Shown piece by piece: positions 50,288-63,716 of a stretch of 64,000 nucleotides of DNA. The notes beneath the pieces are model-generated. The model was not told the DNA's origin. It made no database searches and was given only the letters and a program-made list of their open reading frames with translations. Position 1 is the stretch's first letter. Each line of letters starts with the position of its first letter. The position numbers and the translations under genes are program-made. The DNA is from an uncultured Paracoccaceae bacterium (GTDB lineage: Bacteria; Bacteroidota; Bacteroidia; Flavobacteriales; Flavobacteriaceae), in contig CALSPC010000003.1 in the NCBI GenBank assembly GCA_943788135.1, forward strand, positions 124,001 to 188,000. The letters are read 5' to 3'.

Positions 50288-50527
50288 AAAACAAAAATAT
50301 AGGTTAGAAGCTCTAAATTTACAGTAAGTCAGGCGATTTATCAATAGAAATCAAAAAACAACGTCTTTTTCTAACGATACAGGGTAAGTATGCTAGAAAA
50401 TATGAAACGATTCTTCTGGTTTGCTAAGATTTTGCCCAGAGAACGCAATCAATATTTCAATATTCGTAAAAATATTGATTTTATAGATGTGTATTGGATC
50501 GGCTTTAGTAATTTTGGAGGCACAAAA

Positions 50528-53119
50528 ATGAAATCAGCAATGTCCACACAGCCAAAAATCACAAGGTTTAATCAAAACGTATTATCAAAATATCAAATAT
50601 ACAACAGTATATTTATGACTTTGCCTTTTGATACCATTACCAAAACGGGAGCATTGTTACCTCTTTTCTTTGAAACCTGTCAAAAAGGATTTGCCAATAA
50701 CGAAGACCCGACAACAATTGTAGAATCATTTTTTAAGAAATACCAAGCCCGACGCTCTCCAAAAAGTCAAATAGATTTACTGTTCCGTTTTATACAATAC
50801 ATCGAACGTCAGGTCGTATTGTTTGACGCGATTGAAGATGCTGCCTTTCCGGTCGTTAACAATATGGACGGAATTGGAACGCTGCGAAGCTTGAAAGAAA
50901 CGGTGAAGTCCGAAAACAAATTAGAGCTACTGCAGAAGTACTTAGAGGAATTTAAAGTGCGTATTGTCCTGACAGCTCACCCGACACAATTTTATCCAGG
51001 TTCTGTTTTGGGGATTATTACGGATTTAACGGAAGCCATTCGCGAAAACAACTTGTTCCGTATCAATGAACTTCTAGCGCAATTAGGAAAAACACCGTTT
51101 TTTAAACATAAAAAACCAACGCCATACGACGAAGCGGTTAGCTTAATATGGTATTTAGAGCATGTGTTTTACAAGTCTTTTGGAACGGTATATGACTATA
51201 TCCAACAAAACATCTTTGAAGGGAAACACATTGATAATGATATTATAAACATTGGATTCTGGCCCGGTGGCGACCGCGATGGAAACCCGTTTGTTACGCC
51301 AGAAATCACATTGAAGGTTGCGGCAAGACTTCGAGAAACAATTATAAAAAACTACTACCGTGACGTTCGTAAACTAAAAAGAAAATTATCTTTTGCAGGA
51401 GTTGAAGACCGGATTATAGCACTAGAAGTAGAGCTTTATAAAATTGTAACACAAAAGAAATCGACCCTTACTTTAGAGGGGTTAACTTCAGAGCTAAAAG
51501 AAATTAAAGCCATAATTGTTGACAAACACCAATCCATGTATGCTTCTGAGGTAAATAGCCTCTTGAATAAGATTCACTTATTTGGATTTCATTTTTCGAC
51601 TTTAGACATCCGACAGGACAGTCGTGCGCACGCCAAGGTCTTCAATACGATGGTAGATGCATTGATTGAAAGCGGAAGTGAAGTGTTTCCTAAAAATTAC
51701 CACAGCTTAGCAGAAAAAGATCAAGTTGAAATATTATCAACAATAAAAGGGTCCGTGGACTTGTCATTAATTTCAGATAAGGATACGTTAAAGGCACTCA
51801 AGACTATGGAGGCCATAAAAACAATCCAACACACCAATGGAGAAAGAGCCGCGAATCGCTATATTATAAGTAACAATCAAAGCACGCTTCACGTGATGCA
51901 ATTGTTTGCGATGTTAAAGCTTGTTGCCTTTCATGAAAAACTTACAGTTGATGTGGCGCCTCTTTTTGAGACGATAACCGATTTGGAAAATGCTCCGCAA
52001 GTGATGGAAGATTTGTATTCTAACCCAGAATATGCAGCGCACCTAAAATCTCGAGGCAATAGACAAACGATAATGCTTGGATTTAGTGATGGCACTAAAG
52101 ATGGGGGGTATTTGATGGCCAACTGGGCAATCTATAAGGCTAAAGAATTGTTGACAGCGATGTCTAGAAAATATGATGTTACTGTGATTTTCTTTGACGG
52201 TCGAGGTGGACCACCAGCAAGAGGCGGTGGAAAAACACATAATTTCTATGCGTCTTTAGGACCAACAATTGAAGATAAAGAAGTGCAGTTAACGATCCAA
52301 GGGCAAACGATTAGCTCTAATTTTGGAACACTAGAATCCTCGCAATATAACCTTGAACAGTTGATTAGCTCAGGAATACACAACAGTCTTAGCGATAAGG
52401 ACCTTAGAATGACGCCCGAAAACAGAGAAGTCATGTCTCAGCTGTCTAAATTGAGTTATGAGGCCTATGTTGATTTTAAAGCGCATCCTAAGTTTATTTC
52501 ATATTTAGAGCACATGAGTACGTTAAAGTTTTATGCCAAAACCAACATTGGAAGTCGCCCATCCAAACGCGGAAAAGCGGAAGGCTTGGTGTTCGAAGAC
52601 TTACGTGCCATTCCATTTGTAGGGTCTTGGAGTCAGTTGAAACAAAACGTTCCAGGATTTTTTGGCGTTGGAACTGCATTAAAGCATTATGAAGATATCG
52701 GAGAGTTTGACAAAGCACAACACTTATTTCAAACATCGGATTTTTTCAAAACATTGATAGAAAACAGTATGATGTCCTTATCGAAATCTTTCTTTGATTT
52801 GACAAAATATATGTCTAAAGATCCTGAATATGGGGCATTTTGGAACGTAATTTATAGCGAATATGTCACCACTAAACGCTTGTTATTAAAGCTTACGGGG
52901 TATTCTGAATTGATGCAAGAAGAACCCGCAGGAAAAGCGTCTATTTCGGTAAGAGAATCCATAGTATTACCACTGTTAACGATTCAACAATATGCGTTAA
53001 AGAAAATTCAAGAGCTTGAAAAAGAAAGCCCTAAGGACGAAGCTCAGATAGCAATTTATGAAAAAATTGTTATGCGCTCTTTATTCGGAAATATAAATGC
53101 GAGTCGAAACTCAGCGTAA
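50528..53119 (+). CDS. ppc: Phosphoenolpyruvate carboxylase
   Basis: Carboxylates PEP with bicarbonate to oxaloacetate, an anaplerotic CO2-fixing step. From the ATG at 50528 it is 863 residues, normal for the bacterial enzyme. The start is favoured by a GGAGG run 8 bases before it and by the family beginning near FNQNVLSKYQIYNSIFMTLP. An ORF extension to 50390 is aromatic junk. Catalytic segments AHPTQFYPGS and FFDGRGGPPARGGGKTH (bicarbonate and PEP loop) are intact. The C-terminus ends NASRNSA rather than the classical NTG. It is followed by a bidirectional terminator. Confidence 0.95.
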   Translation: MKSAMSTQPKITRFNQNVLSKYQIYNSIFMTLPFDTITKTGALLPLFFETCQKGFANNEDPTTIVESFFKKYQARRSPKSQIDLLFRFIQYIERQVVLFDAIEDAAFPVVNNMDGIGTLRSLKETVKSENKLELLQKYLEEFKVRIVLTAHPTQFYPGSVLGIITDLTEAIRENNLFRINELLAQLGKTPFFKHKKPTPYDEAVSLIWYLEHVFYKSFGTVYDYIQQNIFEGKHIDNDIINIGFWPGGDRDGNPFVTPEITLKVAARLRETIIKNYYRDVRKLKRKLSFAGVEDRIIALEVELYKIVTQKKSTLTLEGLTSELKEIKAIIVDKHQSMYASEVNSLLNKIHLFGFHFSTLDIRQDSRAHAKVFNTMVDALIESGSEVFPKNYHSLAEKDQVEILSTIKGSVDLSLISDKDTLKALKTMEAIKTIQHTNGERAANRYIISNNQSTLHVMQLFAMLKLVAFHEKLTVDVAPLFETITDLENAPQVMEDLYSNPEYAAHLKSRGNRQTIMLGFSDGTKDGGYLMANWAIYKAKELLTAMSRKYDVTVIFFDGRGGPPARGGGKTHNFYASLGPTIEDKEVQLTIQGQTISSNFGTLESSQYNLEQLISSGIHNSLSDKDLRMTPENREVMSQLSKLSYEAYVDFKAHPKFISYLEHMSTLKFYAKTNIGSRPSKRGKAEGLVFEDLRAIPFVGSWSQLKQNVPGFFGVGTALKHYEDIGEFDKAQHLFQTSDFFKTLIENSMMSLSKSFFDLTKYMSKDPEYGAFWNVIYSEYVTTKRLLLKLTGYSELMQEEPAGKASISVRESIVLPLLTIQQYALKKIQELEKESPKDEAQIAIYEKIVMRSLFGNINASRNSA

Positions 53120-53200: not shown

Positions 53201-54442
53201 CTAATGCTCATTTAATCGAAAATCTGGGTAAGCGTCCATTTGGTGTTCGTGTGCGTCAAGGCCCTCAAGCTCTTCACGTTCCGATACTCTTATGCCTGCT
53301 GTTTTCTTCAGCACGAATATGATGATAAACGAAGTTGCTACACAAAATACAGCGTAACACAACACCCCAACAAGTTGCACTAGAAATTGATCAAACCCAG
53401 CCTTAGCGCCAAAAAGCCCTACAGCTAAAGTTCCCCATATTCCACAAACAAGGTGTACGGCAATTGCCCCAACAGGGTCGTCTAATTTTATTTTATCCAC
53501 TAAGCTAACAGCAAATACAATAAGTGCTCCAGCAATGGCTCCAATTAGGATGGCATCGCCTGGACTCATTTGATCAGCGCCAGCAGTAATCCCTACAAGA
53601 CCACCTAAAACCCCATTAAGAAACATGGTTAGGTCTAAGTTTTTATAAAGTAATGTTGAGGTTAGCATCGCAACAACACCTCCGGCAGCAGCGGCCAGAC
53701 AAGTCGTTACTAATGTTAGTGAGGTTGCCTCTGGGTTTGCAGAAAGCACAGAGCCACCATTAAAACCAAACCATCCTAACCAAAGAATAAGCACACCTGC
53801 AGTTGCCAATGGAATACTATGTCCAGGGATAGCCTGAGGTTTTCCATTATTAAATTTCCCAATTCGAGAACCTAAAAGGTAGACTGCAATTAACGCAGCC
53901 CATCCACCAACAGAATGCACAAGTGTTGAGCCTGCAAAATCATAAAATCCCTCAGCGTCTCCGATTGATAGGGAAGATAAAAATCCACCACCCCATTGCC
54001 AAGAGCCCGCAATTGGATAAACAAAGCCTACATATACAATCGTAAAAATCATAAACGCCCCAATTTTCATGCGTTCTGCCACAGCTCCAGAAACGATGGT
54101 TGCTGCAGTTGCTGCAAACATGCCTTGGAATAAAAAGTCAGTCCAATAAGTGTAGCCTTCGTTGTAAGCTAAGTCAAGTGCGCCATCTGCTAATGGAGCA
54201 TCCAATCCAAATCCAGCAAATCCAACGACGCCGTTAAAATCACCAGGATACATTAGGTTAAAGCCTACGATATAGTAAAGCAAAAGCCCAACAGTAATAA
54301 TAAAGATGTTTTTAAATAATATGTTAATCGTATTTTTTTGTCGTGTGAGTCCGATTTCTAAAAACGCAAACCCTGTATGCATAAAAAATACGAGTGCCGT
54401 ACAGATCATCATCCATACGTTATTGATAGTCAGTAATTCCAT
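53201..54442 (-). CDS. amt: Ammonium transporter (first copy)
   Basis: A 413-residue inner-membrane trimer-forming channel with about 11 helices. FLEIGLTRQKNTINILFKNI and DFAGSTLVHSVGGWAALIAV (with the pore His) are recognisable, as is FGFNGGS. The C-terminal regulatory tail is on the cytoplasmic side, where P-II binds. Its start is 4 bases after the P-II gene, the classic glnB/glnK-amt pair, so P-II probably blocks the channel when nitrogen is sufficient. A second Amt lies at 55040-56329. Confidence 0.95.
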   Translation of the reverse strand: MELLTINNVWMMICTALVFFMHTGFAFLEIGLTRQKNTINILFKNIFIITVGLLLYYIVGFNLMYPGDFNGVVGFAGFGLDAPLADGALDLAYNEGYTYWTDFLFQGMFAATAATIVSGAVAERMKIGAFMIFTIVYVGFVYPIAGSWQWGGGFLSSLSIGDAEGFYDFAGSTLVHSVGGWAALIAVYLLGSRIGKFNNGKPQAIPGHSIPLATAGVLILWLGWFGFNGGSVLSANPEATSLTLVTTCLAAAAGGVVAMLTSTLLYKNLDLTMFLNGVLGGLVGITAGADQMSPGDAILIGAIAGALIVFAVSLVDKIKLDDPVGAIAVHLVCGIWGTLAVGLFGAKAGFDQFLVQLVGVLCYAVFCVATSFIIIFVLKKTAGIRVSEREELEGLDAHEHQMDAYPDFRLNEH

Positions 54443-54446
54443 GGTG

Positions 54447-54785
54447 TTATTTTAATGTGTTTCCGCCTTTTTCGCCGGTTCTAATTCTATATACTTCATC
54501 GACCTGTGAGACAAAGATTTTTCCATCTCCAACATCTCCAGTGGAGCCTGCTGTGAGAATGGCATTGATGGTTACCTCTTCATAATCGTCGTTAACGACA
54601 ATAGATAAATAACGTCTTTGAATATCACTTGTGCTATAAGAAACACCTCGGTAAACATGGCCTTCTTTTTCATTACCTAGGCCTGTGACGTCCCAGTACG
54701 AAAAGAAATTCACACCGACGTCATGCAGTGCTTTTTTGACACTAGAAAACTTAGATTTTCTAATGATTGCCTCTACTTTTTTCAT
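54447..54785 (-). CDS. P-II family nitrogen regulatory protein
   Basis: A 112-residue trimeric signal protein that senses 2-oxoglutarate, ATP and ADP. It starts KKVEAIIRKSKFSSVKKAL (family N-terminus). The T-loop reads EGHVYRGVSYSTSD, two residues shorter than E. coli GlnB at its stem but with a Tyr at the equivalent of Tyr51, so uridylylation remains possible. VGDGKIFVSQVDEVYRIRTGE closes the nucleotide site. The start is set at 54785, since the ORF extension to 54827 is not family sequence. It is the first gene of the operon with amt1. The upstream palindrome at 54832-54851 is a candidate control site. Confidence 0.93.
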   Translation of the reverse strand: MKKVEAIIRKSKFSSVKKALHDVGVNFFSYWDVTGLGNEKEGHVYRGVSYSTSDIQRRYLSIVVNDDYEEVTINAILTAGSTGDVGDGKIFVSQVDEVYRIRTGEKGGNTLK

Positions 54786-54808
54786 TGAATTAATTTTTAG
54801 TTTGTCGT

Positions 54809-54816
54809 CAAAAATA
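54809..54816 (-). promoter_or_regulatory. -7 element of the P-II/amt1 operon (TATTTTTG)
   Basis: On the minus strand TATTTTTG fits TANNTTTG, 23 bases before the P-II ATG. No TTG lies at the usual -33 distance; that place is taken by the end of the palindrome at 54832-54851, which would suit activation by a bound factor. Confidence 0.55.
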
Positions 54817-54831
54817 AATAAAAACAAGACA

Positions 54832-54851
54832 ACCCCTATAATTTTAGGGGT
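54832..54851. promoter_or_regulatory. Candidate operator palindrome, P-II/amt1 promoter
   Basis: ACCCCTATAATTTTAGGGGT is a 20-base palindrome with one mismatched pair. It is GC-rich at both ends inside AT-rich DNA, 15 bases upstream of the -7 element. Related sites occur at the porin/amt2 promoter (57405-57424 and 57458-57476). Confidence 0.65.
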
Positions 54852-54932
54852 GTGTCTCTAGTGTTTTTATGATATTGACAAAATTACCTAGTTTATTATA
54901 GCGGTATGTTAAGTATTTGGTTTAAAATAAAT

Positions 54933-54966
54933 AAAAACCCCAGAAGCGCGAGCCCCTAGGGTTTTT
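54933..54966 (-). terminator. Terminator of amt2
   Basis: AAAAACCC and GGGTTTTT pair around an 18-base GC-containing loop and are followed by T on the minus strand, 74 bases after the amt2 stop. Confidence 0.65.
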
Positions 54967-55039
54967 AACACAAACTAAAAATCACAAACTTTATTTTTAA
55001 TTTTTTGAGAGTATCTAAATACTCAATAGTCTTTTGAAA

Positions 55040-56329
55040 TTAGTCTTGACCTCTTTCTCTTTTTCCAGGATATGCAATAGATCCATGCTCAGAGATATCA
55101 AGTCCAGCAACTTCTTCTTCTTCTGTTACTCTTAATCCAACAGTCTTTTTAAGGATTCCAAATACGATGAAAGACAAAACAACTGCCCATACAGCATAAG
55201 CTAATCCGCCGGTAAGCTGTGCGATAAGTTGATCGGTTACACCGCCGTTGAATAGTCCAATTTTAGTGTCGCCGTCTACACCCCAAAGTCCGATTACAAT
55301 GGTTCCCCAGAACCCAACGATTCCGTGAACAGAAGCAGCACCAATAGCATCATCAATTTTAAGTTTCTTCTCGATAAATTCGATAGAGAACACTACAATG
55401 ACACCACCAATAAGACCCGCTAATACAGCACCACCAGCCGTCATGTTTCCACAACCTGCAGTAATACTTACTAGACCAGCTAAAGCACCGTTTAATGATT
55501 GTGCTAAATGTGGCTTTCCGTACCAGATCCATGTTGTGATTAGTGCACCTAATGCACCAGCAGCAGCAGCAAGATTCGTGATCAACACTACAGTTGAAGC
55601 GGCAACAGCATCGTCTCCACCCCAAGCAAGTTGAGATCCACCATTAAAACCAAACCATCCTAACCATAGAATGAACACCCCTAAGGTTGCTAATATCTGG
55701 TTGTGACCTGGAATAGGCATTACTTTTCCATCTACAAATTTTCCAATTCTAGGACCTACTAAGTAAGCGGCAACTAAAGCAGCAAACCCACCTACAGCAT
55801 GAACGATTGAAGATCCAGCGAAGTCAATAAACCCAAGTTCTGTCAACCATCCTGACCCTTGCCATTGCCATCCACCAGCGATTGGGTAGATGATAGCTGT
55901 CATTACAATTGAAAAGATAACGTAAGTTGAATATTTTGTTCTTCCGGCAATTGCTCCAGAAACAATAGTAGCAGCAGTTGCAGCAAACATTGTTTGGAAG
56001 AACAAATCAGCGCCTTCACCTTGCATGATTCCACTCCAGAAAAACCATCCGTTTGAAGTATCACCATACATTAAAGAGTACCCTACAAACCAGTAGGTAA
56101 GAGATCCTACAGCAATATCAAGCAGGTTTTTCATGGCGATATTTACTGCATTTTTTGAACGTGTCATTCCAGATTCCACTAAAGTAAAACCGGCTTGCAT
56201 AAAGAATACTAAGATACCAGATAATAGCATCCATAACATTCCCATGTCGTCTTTGATCGCTCCAGCAAGACTTTCAACCGCAGCGGCATCCTGAATTACT
56301 AGAGGTAAGTTGTTAATTAAATGTGACAT
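55040..56329 (-). CDS. amt: Ammonium transporter (second copy)
   Basis: A 429-residue inner-membrane ammonium channel, similar in plan to amt1. Motifs TLVESGMTRSKNAVNIAMKN and FIDFAGSSIVHAVGGFAAL (pore His), then FGFNGGS, are intact. The N-terminus has an extra 25-residue segment before the first core helix. It follows the porin gene by 31 bases on the same strand and likely shares its promoter and operator. Two Amt copies suggest different affinity or regulation, one with P-II and one with an outer-membrane porin. Confidence 0.94.
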   Translation of the reverse strand: MSHLINNLPLVIQDAAAVESLAGAIKDDMGMLWMLLSGILVFFMQAGFTLVESGMTRSKNAVNIAMKNLLDIAVGSLTYWFVGYSLMYGDTSNGWFFWSGIMQGEGADLFFQTMFAATAATIVSGAIAGRTKYSTYVIFSIVMTAIIYPIAGGWQWQGSGWLTELGFIDFAGSSIVHAVGGFAALVAAYLVGPRIGKFVDGKVMPIPGHNQILATLGVFILWLGWFGFNGGSQLAWGGDDAVAASTVVLITNLAAAAGALGALITTWIWYGKPHLAQSLNGALAGLVSITAGCGNMTAGGAVLAGLIGGVIVVFSIEFIEKKLKIDDAIGAASVHGIVGFWGTIVIGLWGVDGDTKIGLFNGGVTDQLIAQLTGGLAYAVWAVVLSFIVFGILKKTVGLRVTEEEEVAGLDISEHGSIAYPGKRERGQD

Positions 56330-56360
56330 AAATTATATTTTTGGTTGGTTAATAGTTGTC

Positions 56361-57338
56361 TTAGAAAGAATAGATTGCGGCCACGGTAAATGCTGCTAAA
56401 CTTTTTGAAGCAACACCATCTGAGTCAACATACGGCTCGTCATCGCTCCAAGAGTCTAATCTTACTTCTGGCTTAATTGTTAAGTTTTCTACAGTGTAGC
56501 TTCCTGTTAAGGTTGTAGCAAATACACTTGGTAGATCGTCAACATCTTCTGCGTGTAATCCAAAAAGCTCTCCTCTTAATCCAATAGAGAACGAATCAGA
56601 TGTTGTTAGCTGTGGGTATAATGCTGCTCCGTAAAAACCAGCATCATCACTTACTTGGTATGCGCCGTTAATTCCTAAGAAAAACGAATCAGATAAATCA
56701 AATCCACCCGTATAGTCAATTTCGAAACCTAATACAGAATCATTGTCATAGTAAAGGTTTAAATACTGTCCTGAAAAGCCTAACTGAGCGCCAAATCCAT
56801 AATCACCAGTAGCGTTGTTGTTGGTGTCTGTTGGGTTCATTATAGCTAACATTAAGCTAAAGTCTTCACTTAAAGCAAAATCAGCTTTTAATCCAACATG
56901 AGAAAAAGGACCGCTTGAGAATAAATAAGACGTACTGTAGTTAAAGTTTCCTGCAGGAGAAATCACTTCATACCCTAAGTAAGTGTTGAAACGACCAGCT
57001 GTTAATGTAGTTGTTTCTGAAACATTCCAGTAAGCATATAACTGGTTAAGGTTGTACCCGCCAGCTGCAGAGTCGCCTCTTGGACCGTATACTAGGTCAG
57101 CAACGACCCCTGTTTTTTCGCCTTCATAGCTAAGAACAAGATTAGCCATACCTAAAGCAAATCCAGCTTCATCTGCAAATGAAGTTCCAAAAGAGCCAGA
57201 CACATCATCTGATGCAGATAGATACGTTTGGTAGTAAGCATCTACAGTACCTGAGATTGATAATTTTGGAGCATCATCTTGTGCGTTTAGAGTCATCGCT
57301 CCAACAAAAACAATTGCACTTAAAATAATTTTTTTCAT
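56361..57338 (-). CDS. Outer-membrane beta-barrel porin (BBP2/OmpL-like)
   Basis: A 325-residue exported protein with a signal peptide (KKIILSAIVFVGAMTLNAQ). An all-beta barrel follows, with alternating hydrophobic residues and aromatic girdles. It ends in FTVAAIYSF, with the C-terminal Phe needed for outer-membrane assembly. Segments such as AGFALGMANLVLSYEGEKTG and TLTAGRFNTYLGYEVISPAG fit the putative porin-2 (OmpL-like) family. Its place in front of amt2 suggests it admits nitrogen compounds or ions under nitrogen limitation; that is inference. It is transcribed from a promoter with a proximal and a distal candidate operator. Confidence 0.82.
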   Translation of the reverse strand: MKKIILSAIVFVGAMTLNAQDDAPKLSISGTVDAYYQTYLSASDDVSGSFGTSFADEAGFALGMANLVLSYEGEKTGVVADLVYGPRGDSAAGGYNLNQLYAYWNVSETTTLTAGRFNTYLGYEVISPAGNFNYSTSYLFSSGPFSHVGLKADFALSEDFSLMLAIMNPTDTNNNATGDYGFGAQLGFSGQYLNLYYDNDSVLGFEIDYTGGFDLSDSFFLGINGAYQVSDDAGFYGAALYPQLTTSDSFSIGLRGELFGLHAEDVDDLPSVFATTLTGSYTVENLTIKPEVRLDSWSDDEPYVDSDGVASKSLAAFTVAAIYSF

Positions 57339-57380
57339 AATAGTTAAATTTTAGTAGTTAATTTTTTTTAGTTAACGGCT

Positions 57381-57388
57381 CAAAACTA
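57381..57388 (-). promoter_or_regulatory. -7 element of the porin/amt2 operon (TAGTTTTG)
   Basis: On the minus strand TAGTTTTG fits TANNTTTG, 43 bases before the porin ATG. A TTG in the proximal operator lies 23 bases upstream of it, so operator and -33 element overlap. Confidence 0.65.
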
Positions 57389-57404
57389 AGTATTAATTAT
57401 ATAT

Positions 57405-57424
57405 ACCCCCACAAAATAGAGGGT
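57405..57424. promoter_or_regulatory. Proximal candidate operator, porin/amt2 promoter
   Basis: ACCCCCACAAAATAGAGGGT sits inside a larger dyad, TATACCC (57402-57408) with GGGTATA (57421-57427). It is 16 bases from the -7 element, nearly the same as the 15 bases at the P-II promoter. Confidence 0.55.
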
Positions 57425-57457
57425 ATAAACCAAACTTTTATGTAATATTTATTTTAA

Positions 57458-57476
57458 ACCCCTAAAATTTTGGGGT
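57458..57476. promoter_or_regulatory. Distal candidate operator, porin/amt2 promoter
   Basis: ACCCCTAAAATTTTGGGGT, a near-palindrome one base shorter than the P-II site. It starts 53 bases (about five helical turns) from the proximal site, so two dimers could sit on the same DNA face. Confidence 0.6.
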
Positions 57477-57750
57477 ATTACAATTTTGTTTACATTTTTT
57501 TTGATATTTCAATAGCTCGTAATATTTTGATTCCTCATTTTTTCATAGCCAACGACCTTGTGGGCGTTGTGAAGAAAACAGCTAATTTCTCATTGATTAT
57601 TCGATAGTCTAAAGAGGGTTTCATTGCTCAAAACGCATTAATAGGTAATCTAAATTGGAATTTCGAAAAAGTGACTTCGCTTTTTTCAAAATCGACTTTT
57701 ACCAAGTATCTTACAGGCTTATTAAGGTTAAACCAGAAATAATTTTAAGT

Positions 57751-60700
57751 ATGTTAGAAAAGCAAGGACTTTATTTACCCGAATTTGAGCACGACAATTG
57801 TGGTGCTGGATTTATATGTAGTTTGACAGGGAAGCGCTCCAACGACATTATCCATAAAGCATTAGAAATCTTAGTTAAACTTGAGCATAGAGGTGCGGTG
57901 AGTTCTGACGGAGTTACTGGAGATGGCGCAGGAATACTTATCGATATCCCGCATGAGTTTTTTAAATTATTTTGTGAATTTGAATTGCCAGAAGCAGGAC
58001 AATATGCGGTGAGTAATGTGTTTTTACCTCGTAAAGAAAACCAAAGAGCATATTGTGTTGAAGTTTTTGAAGCTGAAATAAAAAAACAAGGGTTGCAAAT
58101 TCTTGGTTGGAGAGATGTGCCTGTAAATAGTGCGGTTTTAGGAGACATCGCCAAAACAACCGAACCCTTTGTTAAGCAGATATTTATCAGTAAGTCGGAT
58201 AGCAAACAAACAGAATTTGACTTTAACCTTAAACTATTTGCTGCACGAAAAATAGCAGAACATACTATATATGACTCAAAACTATCTGAGTCAAAATTCT
58301 TTTACCTTCCAAGTCTTTCTACTAAGATTATTATTTTTAAAGGGTTATTGAAACCAGAGCATATAAACGAATATTATTTAGATCTTTTTAATTCGGCACT
58401 AGACACTCGATTAGCGTTGGTGCATCAGCGGTTTTCAACCAACACCTTTCCAACATGGGATCTGGCACAGCCGTTCCGATATATTTGCCATAATGGAGAA
58501 ATAAACACCTTAAGAGGAAATGTTTCTCGCATGTTCTCCAGAGAAGAAATTATAAAAAGCGATGCCTTCGGCGATGATATTAAAAAAATCATTCCAACAA
58601 TCCTTAAAGGAAAATCAGATTCTGCAACCCTAGATATGGTGGTTGAGTTATTATTAATGACAGGGCGATCCTTGCCAGAAGTTATGATGATGTTAGTGCC
58701 AGAAGCTTGGGAGAAAAACCCAGACATGTCTGATTCTAAAAAGGCATTCTATGAATACAACTCTTGCCAAATGGAACCATGGGATGGACCAGCGTCTATA
58801 CCCTTTACTGATGGAAACTTTATTGGTGCAGTTTTAGATAGAAATGGGCTGCGACCATCGCGATATACGGTCACCAAAGACGGAAACGTAATTATGTCCT
58901 CCGAAACAGGAGTTGTTGATATTGAGCCAGAAGACGTAGAGTTTCACGGCCGATTAGAGCCAGGAAAAATGTTCCTCGTGGACATGAACGAAGGGCGCAT
59001 CGTAAATGATGAAGAAATTAAAGAAAAAATCGCAGCCAAACAACCGTATAGAAAATGGCTTAATGAAAACTTAGTCCATTTAAAAGACATTTCAGCAAAA
59101 CAAGGTCCTATTATATATGACGAAGTCGAGCTGAAGAAAAGAGAAGTTGCTTTTGGATATACTAAAGAAGATCTTAATACGATTATTCGACCCATGGCAC
59201 AATTAGGAAAAGAACCTATTGGGTCTATGGGTAGCGATACACCAATCGCTGTTTTGTCCGAAAAACCGCAACTGATTTATAACTACTTCAAACAAATATT
59301 TGCACAAGTAACCAACCCGCCTTTGGATGGGATTCGTGAAGAATTGATTACCGACATTAGTCTAACACTAGGAAGTGACACGAATATTTTTGATTGTAAT
59401 TCAGAAGCCTGTAAAAAATTAAAAATTCAAAATCCTGTGATTTCAAAACACGATTTAGATAAAATCAGAAATTATGATTCAAATCCTAATTTCAAAGTGG
59501 AGTCTATTTCTATTTTGTATGAAGTAAAAAGAGGATTAAACGAGCTAGAAAGCGCACTTGAAGCATTGGTTTTAAAGGCGTCTAAAGCTATTGACGAAGG
59601 GGCCAATATTATTATTCTTTCGGACCGCTATGTAGATGAAGATCATGCGCCAATCCCAGCCCTTTTAGCTTGTTCGTACGTAAATCACGGGCTTCACAAA
59701 CTCAATAAACGTTCGAAAATTAGTTTAATAATCGAATCTGCTGAACCAAGAGAAGTGCATCATTTTGCACTCTTATTTGGATTTGGGGCAAGTGCTATAA
59801 ATCCATATATCGTAAATGAGATTGTGGAGAAACAAATTAAAGATTCAGACATAGCGGATTTAGAATACCTTACGGCCATAAAGAACTACAACAAAGCTGT
59901 AGGAAAAGGCATTTTGAAGGTCATGAATAAAATTGGAATTTCGACATTAAATTCATACCGAGGTTCTCAATTGTTTGAGTGTGTTGGAATTAACACAAAC
60001 ACCGTTGAAAAATATTTTCCAAACACCCCTACTCGAATTCAAGGTATTGGATTATTGGAAATCGAAAAAGAAATCGCCAAACGTCATAAAAAAGCATTTA
60101 ACCCTAACATAGAACCAGGCATTGAAATAGGTGGTGAATATAGATGGCGTCGTGGACAGGAAAAACACATGTTTAACCCCTTGACTGTTGCAAAACTTCA
60201 AGAGTCGGTTCGTACGAATAAAGCCTCAACCTTTAAAGAATACTCCGAACTTGTAAACGATCAGTCTAAGCAATTAATGACTATTAGAGGGCTGTTTGAA
60301 TTTGATCAATTTGACCCGATCTCAATTGATGAGGTTGAACCATGGACTGAAATCGTAAAACGTTTCAAAACAGGTGCCATGTCTTATGGATCTATTAGTA
60401 AAGAAGCACATGAGAATTTGGCGGTAGCCATGAACAGAATTGGTGGAAAAAGTAATTCTGGAGAAGGTGGAGAAGATGAAGAACGATTTTATAAAGATGC
60501 ACAAGGCGATTGGAAAAACTCCTCTATTAAGCAAGTTGCTTCAGGTCGTTTTGGAGTGACTTCAAACTATCTTACAAGTGCAAGTGAAATTCAAATTAAA
60601 ATAGCACAGGGTGCAAAACCTGGTGAAGGTGGGCAATTGCCTGGACCAAAAGTGAACCGTGAAATTGCTAAAACAAGAAATTCAACCCCTTATGTTGGAT

Positions 60701-62247
60701 TAATTTCACCTCCTCCACATCACGATATATATTCTATTGAAGATTTATCGCAATTAATATACGATGTGAAATCAGCAAATAGAGCTGCTCGAGTTAATGT
60801 GAAATTAGTTTCGGAAATCGGAGTCGGAACCGTAGCTGCAGGAGTTGCTAAGGCAAAAGCAGATGTGATATTAGTTTCTGGTTTTGATGGTGGAACAGGA
60901 GCTTCACCACTTACGTCCTTGAAACACGCTGGTCTTCCTTGGGAATTAGGAATTGCCGAAGCCCAACAAACATTGGTTATGAATAATTTGAGAAATCGAA
61001 TTGTTCTAGAATGCGATGGTCAGTTAAAAACTGGTCGCGATGTGGCCATAGCATGTTTATTAGGAGCTGAAGAATTTGGATTTGCAACGGCACCGTTAGT
61101 GGCCTCTGGATGTATCATGATGCGTGTATGTCATTTAAACACCTGTCCAGTAGGAATTGCAACTCAAAACCCAGAATTGCGTAAAAAATTCAAAGGCAAA
61201 CCAGAACATGTGGTCAACTATATGTATTTCGTTGCTCAAGAATTACGAGAGATTATGGCACAGTTAGGCTTTAAAACCGTTGATGAAATGGTTGGTCAGG
61301 TTCAAAAACTAAACCGAAACAAAGCGATTGAGCATTATAAATCTTCTGGAATTGATTTGACACCAATTCTTCATAAGGTTGAAGTTGCGCAAGACGTAAA
61401 ATTATATAACACTGAAGAGCAAGATCATAATCTAGATGTTCATTTAGATTTTAAAATGATAAAACAAGCCCACCAAGGTATTTTTAGAAGACAACGAACA
61501 CACTTAAAACTTCCAATTACCAATATTGATAGAGCGGTTGGTGCAATTTTAAGTAATGAAATCTCTAAAATTTATGGTGCAGATGGTTTGCCACAAGACA
61601 CTATAAACGTTGATTTCAATGGTTCTGCTGGACAAAGTTTTGGTGCCTTTACTACAAAAGGGGTTACCATGACTGTTCACGGCAATACAAATGATTATCT
61701 CGGAAAAGGCTTGTCAGGAGCAAAACTAATTATCAAAGTTCCTGAAATCAGTTCAATTGTTCCAGAAGATAACATTATCACAGGAAACGTGACCTTATAT
61801 GGTGCGACTTCCGGAGAAGTGTATATCAATGGAAAAGCAGGCGAACGTTTTTGTGTGCGTAACTCTGGAGCAAAAGCCGTAGTTGAAGGGATTGGAGATC
61901 ACGGATGTGAGTACATGACCGGAGGCGTTGCTGTAATTCTTGGAGCGGTAGGCCGAAACTTTGGCGCTGGAATGAGTGGTGGTGTAGCATACATTTTAGA
62001 TGCGGATAATACGTTTACTAAAAACTGTAATGGAGAAGATTTAAATATCGACCCTGTTGAACTTCAAGAAGACGTGAATCAATTACGAACATTAATCGAA
62101 AACCATTTTGTGGCGACATCAAGTCCGTTAGCAAAACGAATTTTAGAAAATTGGGAAGCAACACTTCCTCAATTCAAAAAAGTACTGCCAGAAGAATATA
62201 GACAGGCTTTAATAAGATTAGAAAAAGAACAACTCGAAACAGTTTAA
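57751..62247 (+). CDS. gltB: Glutamate synthase large subunit
   Basis: Transfers the amide nitrogen of glutamine to 2-oxoglutarate. The product is 1498 residues from the ATG at 57751; the ORF extension to 57655 is rejected because the family begins with a short propeptide ending at the catalytic Cys. That Cys is C17 in HDNCGAGF, freed by propeptide cleavage, and starts the glutaminase domain. The FMN-binding synthase domain follows, with the 3Fe-4S cysteines C1121, C1127 and C1132 (C-x5-C-x4-C). A C-terminal beta-helix domain includes GGVAVILGAVGRNFGAG. It is in one operon with gltD, 2 bases apart. Confidence 0.97.
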   Translation: MLEKQGLYLPEFEHDNCGAGFICSLTGKRSNDIIHKALEILVKLEHRGAVSSDGVTGDGAGILIDIPHEFFKLFCEFELPEAGQYAVSNVFLPRKENQRAYCVEVFEAEIKKQGLQILGWRDVPVNSAVLGDIAKTTEPFVKQIFISKSDSKQTEFDFNLKLFAARKIAEHTIYDSKLSESKFFYLPSLSTKIIIFKGLLKPEHINEYYLDLFNSALDTRLALVHQRFSTNTFPTWDLAQPFRYICHNGEINTLRGNVSRMFSREEIIKSDAFGDDIKKIIPTILKGKSDSATLDMVVELLLMTGRSLPEVMMMLVPEAWEKNPDMSDSKKAFYEYNSCQMEPWDGPASIPFTDGNFIGAVLDRNGLRPSRYTVTKDGNVIMSSETGVVDIEPEDVEFHGRLEPGKMFLVDMNEGRIVNDEEIKEKIAAKQPYRKWLNENLVHLKDISAKQGPIIYDEVELKKREVAFGYTKEDLNTIIRPMAQLGKEPIGSMGSDTPIAVLSEKPQLIYNYFKQIFAQVTNPPLDGIREELITDISLTLGSDTNIFDCNSEACKKLKIQNPVISKHDLDKIRNYDSNPNFKVESISILYEVKRGLNELESALEALVLKASKAIDEGANIIILSDRYVDEDHAPIPALLACSYVNHGLHKLNKRSKISLIIESAEPREVHHFALLFGFGASAINPYIVNEIVEKQIKDSDIADLEYLTAIKNYNKAVGKGILKVMNKIGISTLNSYRGSQLFECVGINTNTVEKYFPNTPTRIQGIGLLEIEKEIAKRHKKAFNPNIEPGIEIGGEYRWRRGQEKHMFNPLTVAKLQESVRTNKASTFKEYSELVNDQSKQLMTIRGLFEFDQFDPISIDEVEPWTEIVKRFKTGAMSYGSISKEAHENLAVAMNRIGGKSNSGEGGEDEERFYKDAQGDWKNSSIKQVASGRFGVTSNYLTSASEIQIKIAQGAKPGEGGQLPGPKVNREIAKTRNSTPYVGLISPPPHHDIYSIEDLSQLIYDVKSANRAARVNVKLVSEIGVGTVAAGVAKAKADVILVSGFDGGTGASPLTSLKHAGLPWELGIAEAQQTLVMNNLRNRIVLECDGQLKTGRDVAIACLLGAEEFGFATAPLVASGCIMMRVCHLNTCPVGIATQNPELRKKFKGKPEHVVNYMYFVAQELREIMAQLGFKTVDEMVGQVQKLNRNKAIEHYKSSGIDLTPILHKVEVAQDVKLYNTEEQDHNLDVHLDFKMIKQAHQGIFRRQRTHLKLPITNIDRAVGAILSNEISKIYGADGLPQDTINVDFNGSAGQSFGAFTTKGVTMTVHGNTNDYLGKGLSGAKLIIKVPEISSIVPEDNIITGNVTLYGATSGEVYINGKAGERFCVRNSGAKAVVEGIGDHGCEYMTGGVAVILGAVGRNFGAGMSGGVAYILDADNTFTKNCNGEDLNIDPVELQEDVNQLRTLIENHFVATSSPLAKRILENWEATLPQFKKVLPEEYRQALIRLEKEQLETV

Positions 62248-62249
62248 GG

Positions 62250-63716
62250 ATGGGAAAGACAACAGGATTTTTAGAATTTGAGCGCCAGGATGAGACGTAT
62301 CAGGCACCAAAAGAGAGAATAAAAAACTATAAAGAATTTACAATTCCGTTAGAGGAATCTAAATTAAAGGACCAAGGCGCACGTTGTATGGATTGCGGAA
62401 TTCCGTTTTGTCATAGCGGCTGTCCGCTAGGAAATTTAATTCCAGATTTTAACGACAAAGTCTATAAAGGCAAATGGAAAGAAGCTGCTGAAATTTTACA
62501 TTCCACCAATAATTTTCCTGAATTTACAGGGCGATTATGTCCGGCACCTTGCGAAGAAGCTTGTGTTTTAGGGATTAATGAAGATCCAGTAAGTATTGAA
62601 AATATAGAAAAAAATATTGTGGAAACGGCCTTTACCGAAGGGTGGATTACCGCACAACCTCCAAAAGTACGAACCGACAAAACCGTGGCTGTTATAGGGT
62701 CTGGTCCTGCAGGACTTGCTGCTGCACAACAATTAAATAGAGCGGGTCATACCGTTACTGTTTTCGAACGTGATCATAAAGTTGGTGGATTATTACGTTA
62801 TGGTATTCCAGATTTCAAAATGGAAAAAAACGTAATTGACCGTCGTATTGATGTTTTGAAGGAGGAAGGGATTGTGTTTAAAACCAATGCTCATGTTGGA
62901 AAAAACATAGATGCCAAGCAGATAAAAGCCGATTTTGATGCCGTAGTTTTATGCGGAGGAGCAACAGTCAAAAGAAACATTCCAATCCCAGGTGCTGATC
63001 TTGAAGGAGTTCACCAAGCGATGGAGTTTTTGAAGCTTAATAATCAACATGTAGACGGCTTAGTAGACTTTAAAGACATTCTTTCTGCAGAAAATAAAAA
63101 TGTTATTGTAATAGGTGGAGGTGATACAGGTTCAGACTGTATTGGAACCTCTAATCGTCATGGTGCAAAATCTGTCACTAATTTTGAAATTTTAACGAAA
63201 CCAACCGAAGGACGACCAGCAAATCAACCGTGGCCCTATTGGCCAATGAAACTCAAAACAACCTCTTCACATCAAGAAGGTGTTGAGCGCTTTTTTAGTA
63301 TTTCTACAAAAGAATTTATTGGCGATGCCAAGGGCAAATTGAAAGCGTTAAAAACTGTTGAAGTCGAGTGGATTTTTAGAGAAGGCGAACGCCCAGAACT
63401 AAAGGAAGTTCCAAACTCTGAAAAACTTTGGGATTGTGATTTAGCTCTATTGGCTTTAGGATTCACAGGTGCCGAAAAGACATTAGCAGATCAATTTGGT
63501 TTAGAAATGGATTTTAGAACCAACATCAAAGCTACAACAAAGGACTACGTTACAAACGTTCCGGGCATATTTGCAGCAGGAGATATGAGACGAGGACAAT
63601 CGCTAATTGTGTGGGCTATTTCTGAAGGAAGACAGGCAGCACATCATGTAGACACCTATTTAATGGGGGCTTCAGAGTTGCCTTTGAAGGATGATAGTGA
63701 TTTACCGCGTATTTAA
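62250..63716 (+). CDS. gltD: Glutamate synthase small subunit
   Basis: A 488-residue NADPH-oxidising subunit that feeds electrons to GltB. The N-terminal Fe-S motif is CMDCGIPFCHSGCP (C46, C49, C54, C58), with CPAPCEEAC further on. Two nucleotide-binding folds follow: FAD motif GSGPAGLAAAQQL near 147 and NADPH motif GGGDTGSDCIGT near 290. The C-terminal GIFAAGDMRRGQSLIVWAIS closes the FAD site. No sign of damage. Confidence 0.97.
   Translation: MGKTTGFLEFERQDETYQAPKERIKNYKEFTIPLEESKLKDQGARCMDCGIPFCHSGCPLGNLIPDFNDKVYKGKWKEAAEILHSTNNFPEFTGRLCPAPCEEACVLGINEDPVSIENIEKNIVETAFTEGWITAQPPKVRTDKTVAVIGSGPAGLAAAQQLNRAGHTVTVFERDHKVGGLLRYGIPDFKMEKNVIDRRIDVLKEEGIVFKTNAHVGKNIDAKQIKADFDAVVLCGGATVKRNIPIPGADLEGVHQAMEFLKLNNQHVDGLVDFKDILSAENKNVIVIGGGDTGSDCIGTSNRHGAKSVTNFEILTKPTEGRPANQPWPYWPMKLKTTSSHQEGVERFFSISTKEFIGDAKGKLKALKTVEVEWIFREGERPELKEVPNSEKLWDCDLALLALGFTGAEKTLADQFGLEMDFRTNIKATTKDYVTNVPGIFAAGDMRRGQSLIVWAISEGRQAAHHVDTYLMGASELPLKDDSDLPRI

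Follow-up and report, generated by a model that had tools for sequence, protein, structure and literature searches.

The question raised by this locus is whether short palindromes shared by two ammonium-transport promoters are regulatory sites and, if they are, which genes they control and what kind of protein might read them. The locus lies in a stretch of 64,000 nucleotides, referred to here as the window, of contig CALSPC010000003.1 (assembly GCA_943788135.1; positions 124,001 to 188,000, forward strand), from a genome of 1.91 Mb that is 92% complete. A first-pass annotation had placed one palindrome before the P-II and amt1 genes and two before the porin and amt2 genes, and all three are found there with the arms that it described. 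The P-II palindrome (54832–54851) has perfect ACCCC/GGGGT arms around an N10 core and is kept in relatives. At the porin promoter the proximal palindrome (57405–57424) has one arm mismatch (AGGGT for GGGGT), and the distal palindrome (57458–57476), which is also the site nearest to gltB, has perfect arms and an N9 core. We note that the term GC-rich, as used in that annotation, suits the arms and not the AT core. The two porin palindromes are 53 bp apart and do stand upstream of porin and amt2 as proposed, but they do not belong to that side alone, as the gap that holds them is divergent with gltB. In our view, the palindromes are probably operators of a nitrogen regulon in the Flavobacteriales, whatever the sign of the regulation.

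A search of the window that tolerated no more than one mismatch in the arms and required an AT-rich core returned four matches, namely the three palindromes and 51464–51482, which is inside a 909-codon open reading frame (ORF; 50390–53119). One hundred dinucleotide shuffles gave a mean of 0.54 such matches, with three reached in four shuffles and four in none. The window count is only moderately improbable and chance is not dismissed on the window alone; the significance of the palindromes comes from their position and their conservation across genomes, not from this count. In the whole 1.91-Mb genome the P-II site is the sole match to ACCCCTA-N6-TAGGGGT at zero or one mismatch. With up to three mismatches there are 57 places compared with 43 for the reversed control, and since this is near background such loose matches mean little.

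Conservation and promoter geometry

Conservation was assessed in 80 P-II loci of the family, in which simple ORF calls leave 88,053 of 909,813 bases intergenic, with a gap of 8–11 bases allowed between the arms. Exact ACCCC/GGGGT arms occur 26 times in intergenic and 0 times in coding DNA, and with up to one mismatch the counts are 72 intergenic versus 13 coding. Permuted arms served for comparison. One of the 14, CCCCT/AGGGG, is the same motif shifted by one base and gave 15 intergenic matches at zero mismatches and 52 at up to one; the other 13 gave at most two at zero mismatches and at most 16 at up to one. From 74 of the loci we obtained 96 upstream regions, defined by a gap of at least 110 bp before porin, P-II or amt (six loci gave none), and a site with at most two mismatches is present in 58 of the 74. 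The arms are constant across these relatives, while the core varies in both sequence and length. The first-pass annotation had stated that its reading would fall if the motif were as common in coding DNA as before nitrogen genes, or if it were not conserved in related species; the motif is concentrated between genes, and it recurs both in these loci and at nitrogen targets genome-wide.

The palindromes also hold a regular position relative to the promoter. In the accessible part of a study of Flavobacterium psychrophilum, TAnnTTTG is given as the sigma-A −7 box, at −12 to −5 (PMC9723704). The P-II promoter has a match to this pattern on the minus strand, TATTTTTG at 54809–54816, at a distance of 15 bp from its palindrome; in the porin promoter the match, also on the minus strand, is TAGTTTTG at 57381–57388, and the proximal palindrome is 16 bp away. 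If the box is taken as −12 to −5, the P-II palindrome spans about −28 to −47, the proximal sites are centred near −38 and the distal porin site is centred near −91. Among 59 promoters having a site with at most two mismatches, an exact TAnnTTTG lies at 14–18 bp in 19, and in all of these the distance is 15–17 bp; in the shuffled control such boxes averaged 0.32 and never exceeded 3. Two further exact boxes, at 8 bp, were found among the same 59 promoters. A fixed distance from the −7 box is expected of a class II activator site at a sigma-A promoter, and such a distance, mostly 15–17 bp, is what was observed.

Where two sites are neighbours, they are regularly spaced: 34 of 35 pairs are 51–54 bp apart centre to centre and the remaining pair is at 43 bp. 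Because partners at 51–54 bp recur in loci that were chosen by the palindrome alone (15 of 20 porin promoters and seven of 12 P-II promoters), the tandem layout is not a circular result. In the window, a degenerate copy at 54886–54905 (minus strand; ACCGC-N10-TAGGT, three arm mismatches) is centred 54 bp upstream of the P-II palindrome and, by analogy with the tandem layout, is a possible but weak distal P-II site.

Targets across genomes and gene neighbourhood

The site together with the −7 box was sought in 249 genomes of the family, each match being assigned to the largest of the ORFs whose start lies no more than 800 bp away. The scan returned 60 matches in 56 genomes, compared with three for the reversed control, and 50 of the 60 precede nitrogen-assimilation genes. 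These 50 comprise 19 porin genes, 21 amt1 genes (most at a distance that leaves room for P-II between), one amt-like gene (27% identity), seven type III glutamine synthetases (GSIII) and two type II enzymes (GSII). The ten matches elsewhere include six with a GC-containing core followed by a T-run (L168, L171, L175, L183, L184 and L195), which look like terminators, and four that are not terminator-like (L174, L180, L188 and L194).

The palindrome alone, with an AT core and no −7 box required, is present in 120 of the 249 genomes. A sample of 62 of the listed loci (L212–L273) was inspected; it overlaps the site-plus-box set, being made up of 30 loci of which some were already in that set and 32 chosen outside it. 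In 61 of the 62 loci we found a total of 62 sites, 48 of them at nitrogen genes: 21 in the gltB/porin gap, ten before P-II, seven between two glutamine synthetases, five before type III glutamine synthetase, three before amt, and one each before gltB and alanine dehydrogenase. Nine of the other 14 sites precede other genes, two are in convergent gaps and three were called coding, although two of these last (L225 and L260) precede P-II once the P-II start is corrected. Both sets are concentrated at nitrogen genes.

A scan of all 1.91 Mb of the genome that holds the window for CCC-N12..14-GGGT-N14..18-TAnnTTTG gave four matches. Two are the P-II and porin promoters of the window, and the others are a hairpin at an atpD-like gene and a junction between two same-strand ORFs on contig 9. 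The same genome has a two-mismatch palindrome between the divergent genes glnA and glnN. The targets therefore extend beyond ammonium uptake to glutamine synthetases, glutamate synthase (GOGAT), alanine dehydrogenase (L107, L247, L347 and L348) and, in one genome, urease and urea transport.

The f3 and f7 genomes indicate that the range is wider than one family. Outside the family, the f3 genome G038 has a site before P-II, and the five f7 genomes with matches in an order-wide draw have one before an amt-like gene (29% identity) or a type III glutamine synthetase. This draw found the AT-core palindrome in 98 of 392 genomes, and matches also occur in f5 (about 27 genomes, for example G387, G522 and G563), f8, f9 and f12, which may or may not be nitrogen sites. 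The earlier proposal of a regulator of ammonium uptake genes in Flavobacteriaceae is thus supported as to the operator, and its scope has to be widened in both genes and families.

Some further sites were noted during this survey. In G516 (L339:1224-2998) a palindrome lies between divergent genes for urease (ureA; PF00547) and a periplasmic binding protein of the urea-transporter type (PF13433), an arrangement which suggests that urea use joins the regulon. AT-core palindromes in L214, L245, L228, L259, L246, L248 and L266 also precede other genes, which by eye include serine-dehydratase-like, saccharopine-dehydrogenase-like, ECF-sigma-like and response-regulator genes and others without a name; some of these may be true extra targets. 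A different structure is the GC-core hairpin ACCCAGAGC..GCTCTGGGT, or close variants of it, which is followed by a T-run at L127:1501-1546 (C3:27385-27430 of the same genome as the window, outside the window). Some 60 bp downstream of it begins a gene whose product starts MSKVTGKV.. (read by eye as atpD), and it is conserved across the genus, with like hairpins at L114, L123, L126, L128, L129, L133, L136, L140 and L141. As their stems have GC cores and a T-run, these hairpins, which were picked up in the genus by the site-plus-box pattern, were taken as terminator- or leader-like and were left out as operators.

The genes around the palindromes in the window form two minus-strand pairs and one divergent plus-strand pair. 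Reading along the minus strand, the order is the OmpL-like β-barrel porin (BBP2; 56361–57338, Pfam PF07642), which is the first gene of porin–amt2, ammonium transporter 2 (55040–56329, PF00909), a terminator-like stem (54932–54967, minus strand; 16 pairs and a T-rich tail), the P-II signalling protein (54447–54785, PF00543) and ammonium transporter 1 (53201–54442, PF00909). The stem separates amt2 from the P-II promoter. Divergent from porin on the plus strand are gltB, encoding the large subunit of glutamate synthase (57751–62247, within ORF 57655–62247; named by eye and from gene order in relatives, with the ATG at 57751 chosen by eye), and gltD, encoding the small subunit (62250–63716; named by eye and from Pfam domains).

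The sites cannot be taken to control gltB except where its side of the gap has a −7 box, as in G017 and L211 and, at 19 bp, in L271. In the window, TACATTTT at 57491–57498 (plus strand) matches five of the six defined bases and lies 14 bp from the palindrome at 57458–57476; it is a possible gltB −7 box, tentatively assigned and not kept in relatives. We also noted by eye a block resembling ATTTTxTGAAATATCAATAA, about 15–35 bp from the distal palindrome towards gltB and without an exact −7 box, both in the window (57491–57520) and on the gltB side of 30 relatives. This block is possibly the gltB promoter with a variant box.

Mode of action and candidate regulators

The sequence of the palindrome, its conservation, its targets and its spacing are shown by the data, and on these grounds it is a real cis-regulatory element that has been conserved, serves a nitrogen regulon and comes with a well-defined promoter geometry. 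From this we infer a dimeric protein, cooperative binding, activation and a nitrogen signal. The predicted transcription factor would bind the palindrome as a symmetric dimer and control nitrogen assimilation. A proximal dimer at about −38 would end 15–17 bp before the sigma-A −7 box and overlap the −33 region, and at many promoters a second dimer would bind on the same helix face about 52 bp, or five turns, further upstream, near −90. Activation when nitrogen is scarce would then increase ammonium import (porin and Amt) and the supply of P-II, glutamine synthetases and GOGAT.

Several observations weigh against this reading. At 16 of the 74 loci there is no site with up to two mismatches, and at this threshold the P-II genes of G096, G095 and G189 have none. 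No site is present in the stretch seen at the P-II gene of G050 or at one of the two copies in G183; in G050 the gene lies behind a coding frame that by eye is porin-like, and coding sequence also precedes the G183 copy that has no site. Four of nine P-II genes from eight genomes have a site with up to two mismatches (G083, one G183 copy, G173 and G038). Promoters of GSII and GSIII are mostly single-site, 16 of 19 being without a partner at 51–54 bp and three having one. On the gltB side, an exact −7 box at 14–18 bp was found in none of 30 regions. Loss of the −33 element, which would favour an activator, is not significant: TTG near −33 is present in four of 27 site promoters compared with 17 of 66 control promoters (p = 0.29), and for TTTG p = 0.72. 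Finally, no cognate protein was found among the Lrp/AsnC and CRP/FNR families, which were those tested.

As regards the sign, a repressor bound at −38 might instead cover the −33 region and shut the genes when nitrogen is plentiful, while the site at −90 would contribute cooperativity or looping, as with AmtR. The overlap of the site with the region contacted by RNA polymerase favours such a repressor, as does the lack of significant depletion of TTG near −33. A fixed same-face spacing to the −7 box together with a second upstream dimer is, however, more usual for activators, and we regard a repressor as unlikely, though to be taken seriously. This alternative concerns the sign alone, and our assessment of the palindromes as operators covers either sign. 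Activation from about −38 is preferred as the most likely mode because overlap with −33 and a second site on the same face are typical of cooperative or double contact with RNA polymerase. It is very improbable that the palindrome acts as RNA, in the form of a terminator, attenuator or riboswitch stem. The P-II palindrome does score as a terminator-like stem of seven pairs and folds as RNA with its flanks (z −5.2), and it is overlapped by a sub-threshold Rfam match to His_leader (E 0.12); at the sites Rfam gave no family at the gathering score, only His_leader below threshold (E 0.12 and 0.35). Yet the palindrome is upstream of the −7 box, so that transcripts from that promoter would not contain it, the porin stem is unremarkable (z −1.3), the arm sequence itself is conserved, and a stronger stem with a T-tail is already present behind amt2.

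As the regulator, an Lrp/AsnC-family protein (feast/famine regulator) is improbable, although AT-core palindromes and phased sites suit this family. Paralogues (PF01037) were found in all of the 12 small genomes searched, and apart from a few singletons their tree resolved into three groups: A, present in 12 of 12, B, present in 10 of 12, and C, present in the genome of the window and in five more. The presence of group C in G264 is deduced from coordinates and from the sister genome G095, as tree row L299 is a wrong ORF. There is also a precedent in Escherichia coli, where gltBDF is under direct positive Lrp control according to the accessible text of PMC1784095. Group C adjoins P-II–amt–porin in L085, L086 and L094 and porin in L298 and L300, and in the genome of the window it lies about 4 kb from glnN (L326:8810-9250, near glnA/glnN); some members of the family may use it for nitrogen control. 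This linkage could, however, reflect an ancient gene order shared with prfA, pyrF and crcB (names assigned by eye), and group C is missing from G080 and G183, both of which have a site at P-II–amt. Group A is universal in the set and so is uninformative. In seven Flavobacteriaceae genomes the best match to group B reaches only the E-value level of group A, and the site is kept: before GSIII (G561), before an amt-like gene (G553), in the urease/urea-binding gap (G516) and upstream of a porin of 29–39% identity, some 300 bp from it (G541, G461, G365 and G466). The f7 genomes G298, G042 and G327 have a site at amt or GSIII and no group B match, but the search might overlook an Lrp that has diverged. 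The 350 bp upstream of 34 genes at Lrp loci were inspected and contain no palindrome at two mismatches or fewer; six of these genes have three-mismatch matches and one (L299) is not an Lrp ORF.

A MerR-type protein such as MliR, which would be a Gram-negative parallel to GlnR/TnrA, is in our estimate quite improbable. In its favour, the outer arms ACCC/GGGT and the total length of 19–21 bp resemble MerR-type operators. According to the part of PMC9478572 that is accessible, MliR is the only MerR-superfamily gene reported in Bizionia, it is described as an activator and has no effector domain, and its deletion lowers iron genes, with asparagine synthetase B among the ten most lowered transcripts. 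An activator without an effector domain whose loss lowers asparagine synthetase B would fit this proposal. On the other hand, the study concerns iron and metal genes in cells grown in marine broth, its main text contains no glutam-, gltB or glnA and mentions ammonium only in a stain (PMC9478572), and these promoters do not carry TGTNA-N7-TNACA, the GlnR/TnrA pattern.

Some more specific proposals were rejected. Lrp group B as a required regulator is plausible in the 12 small genomes and is ruled out by the site-bearing genomes that lack it, while group C as the sole regulator is missing from motif-bearing genomes. Autoregulation of Lrp was set aside in view of the absence of a palindrome at up to two mismatches upstream of Lrp genes. 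CRP/FNR proteins fall into two types (sorted by eye), each missing from some motif-bearing genomes; the genome of the window holds one type only and G080 only the other. Among the matches listed in a survey of neighbours of the 80 P-II loci, restricted to clusters with a representative of less than 420 residues, the regulators that recur (by eye) are Lrp group C, found in three loci, and proteins of LacI-like, MarR-like and response-regulator-like type, each found in two.

Comparison with known nitrogen control systems

The NtrC, NtcA, GlnR/TnrA and AmtR regulons have the same target list as that found here. The cyanobacterial NtcA, a CRP/FNR protein which responds to 2-oxoglutarate and P-II/PipX, binds a palindrome near −40 at sigma-70-type promoters of amt, glnA, glnB and urea genes. 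The present system resembles it in having one palindrome near −40 at nitrogen promoters, and differs in that no single orthologous CRP protein runs across the motif-bearing genomes (types sorted by eye). The NtcA motif GTA-N8-TAC has 12 matches in the window, none of them within 54786–55039 or 57339–57750. The likeness to TnrA/GlnR of Bacilli, which belong to the MerR superfamily, lies in the class of targets and in a palindrome upstream of a housekeeping promoter. Both matches to the TnrA/GlnR pattern in the window are away from these promoters, and the tandem 52-bp layout sets the present system apart.

The NtrC/sigma-54 system of Proteobacteria controls glnK–amtB, glnA, gltBD and urea genes, which is the same gene set, whereas the promoters described here have a sigma-A −7 box at a fixed spacing. 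The AmtR protein of Corynebacterium, of the TetR family, is a repressor with a palindromic operator at amt and gln genes; the likeness is in the operator and its location, and the motif is different. At gltBDF of E. coli, Lrp acts on a GOGAT operon through phased multiple sites, which is similar in both respects, but Lrp groups B and C do not track the motif. Matches to the sigma-54 −24/−12 promoter pattern TGGCAC-N5-TTGC with up to three mismatches number 271 compared with 256 expected, which is the chance level, and the matches listed end before the promoter region. In F. psychrophilum, the sigma-54 promoters are mainly tied to protein quality control, envelope stress and gliding, according to the accessible part of that study (PMC9723704).

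A precedent for coordinated control within the Bacteroidota is Prevotella ruminicola, in which amtB, glnK, glnN, gltBD and asnB change together with ammonium; the accessible text gives the direction of this response both ways and names no regulator (PMC5552732). We count this co-regulation in favour of a nitrogen regulon read through the palindromes. Our literature search found no description of this motif or of a flavobacterial nitrogen regulator, most subscription papers being outside its reach, and in the literature searched the control of ammonium-assimilation genes in flavobacteria is not described. Flavobacteria are major degraders in the sea and in soil. The operator, the promoter geometry and the target list together turn the control of nitrogen genes in Bacteroidota into a concrete question for pull-down and knock-out experiments, and a scan for the motif could reveal the nitrogen strategy of uncultured genomes. 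We propose tentatively, and with confidence a little short of even, that the Flavobacteriales possess a new master nitrogen regulator outside NtrC, NtcA, GlnR/TnrA, AmtR and NrpR, which would read ACCCC-N10-GGGGT with two helix-phased dimers (−38 and −90) on a sigma-A promoter and so switch the whole ammonium-assimilation programme.

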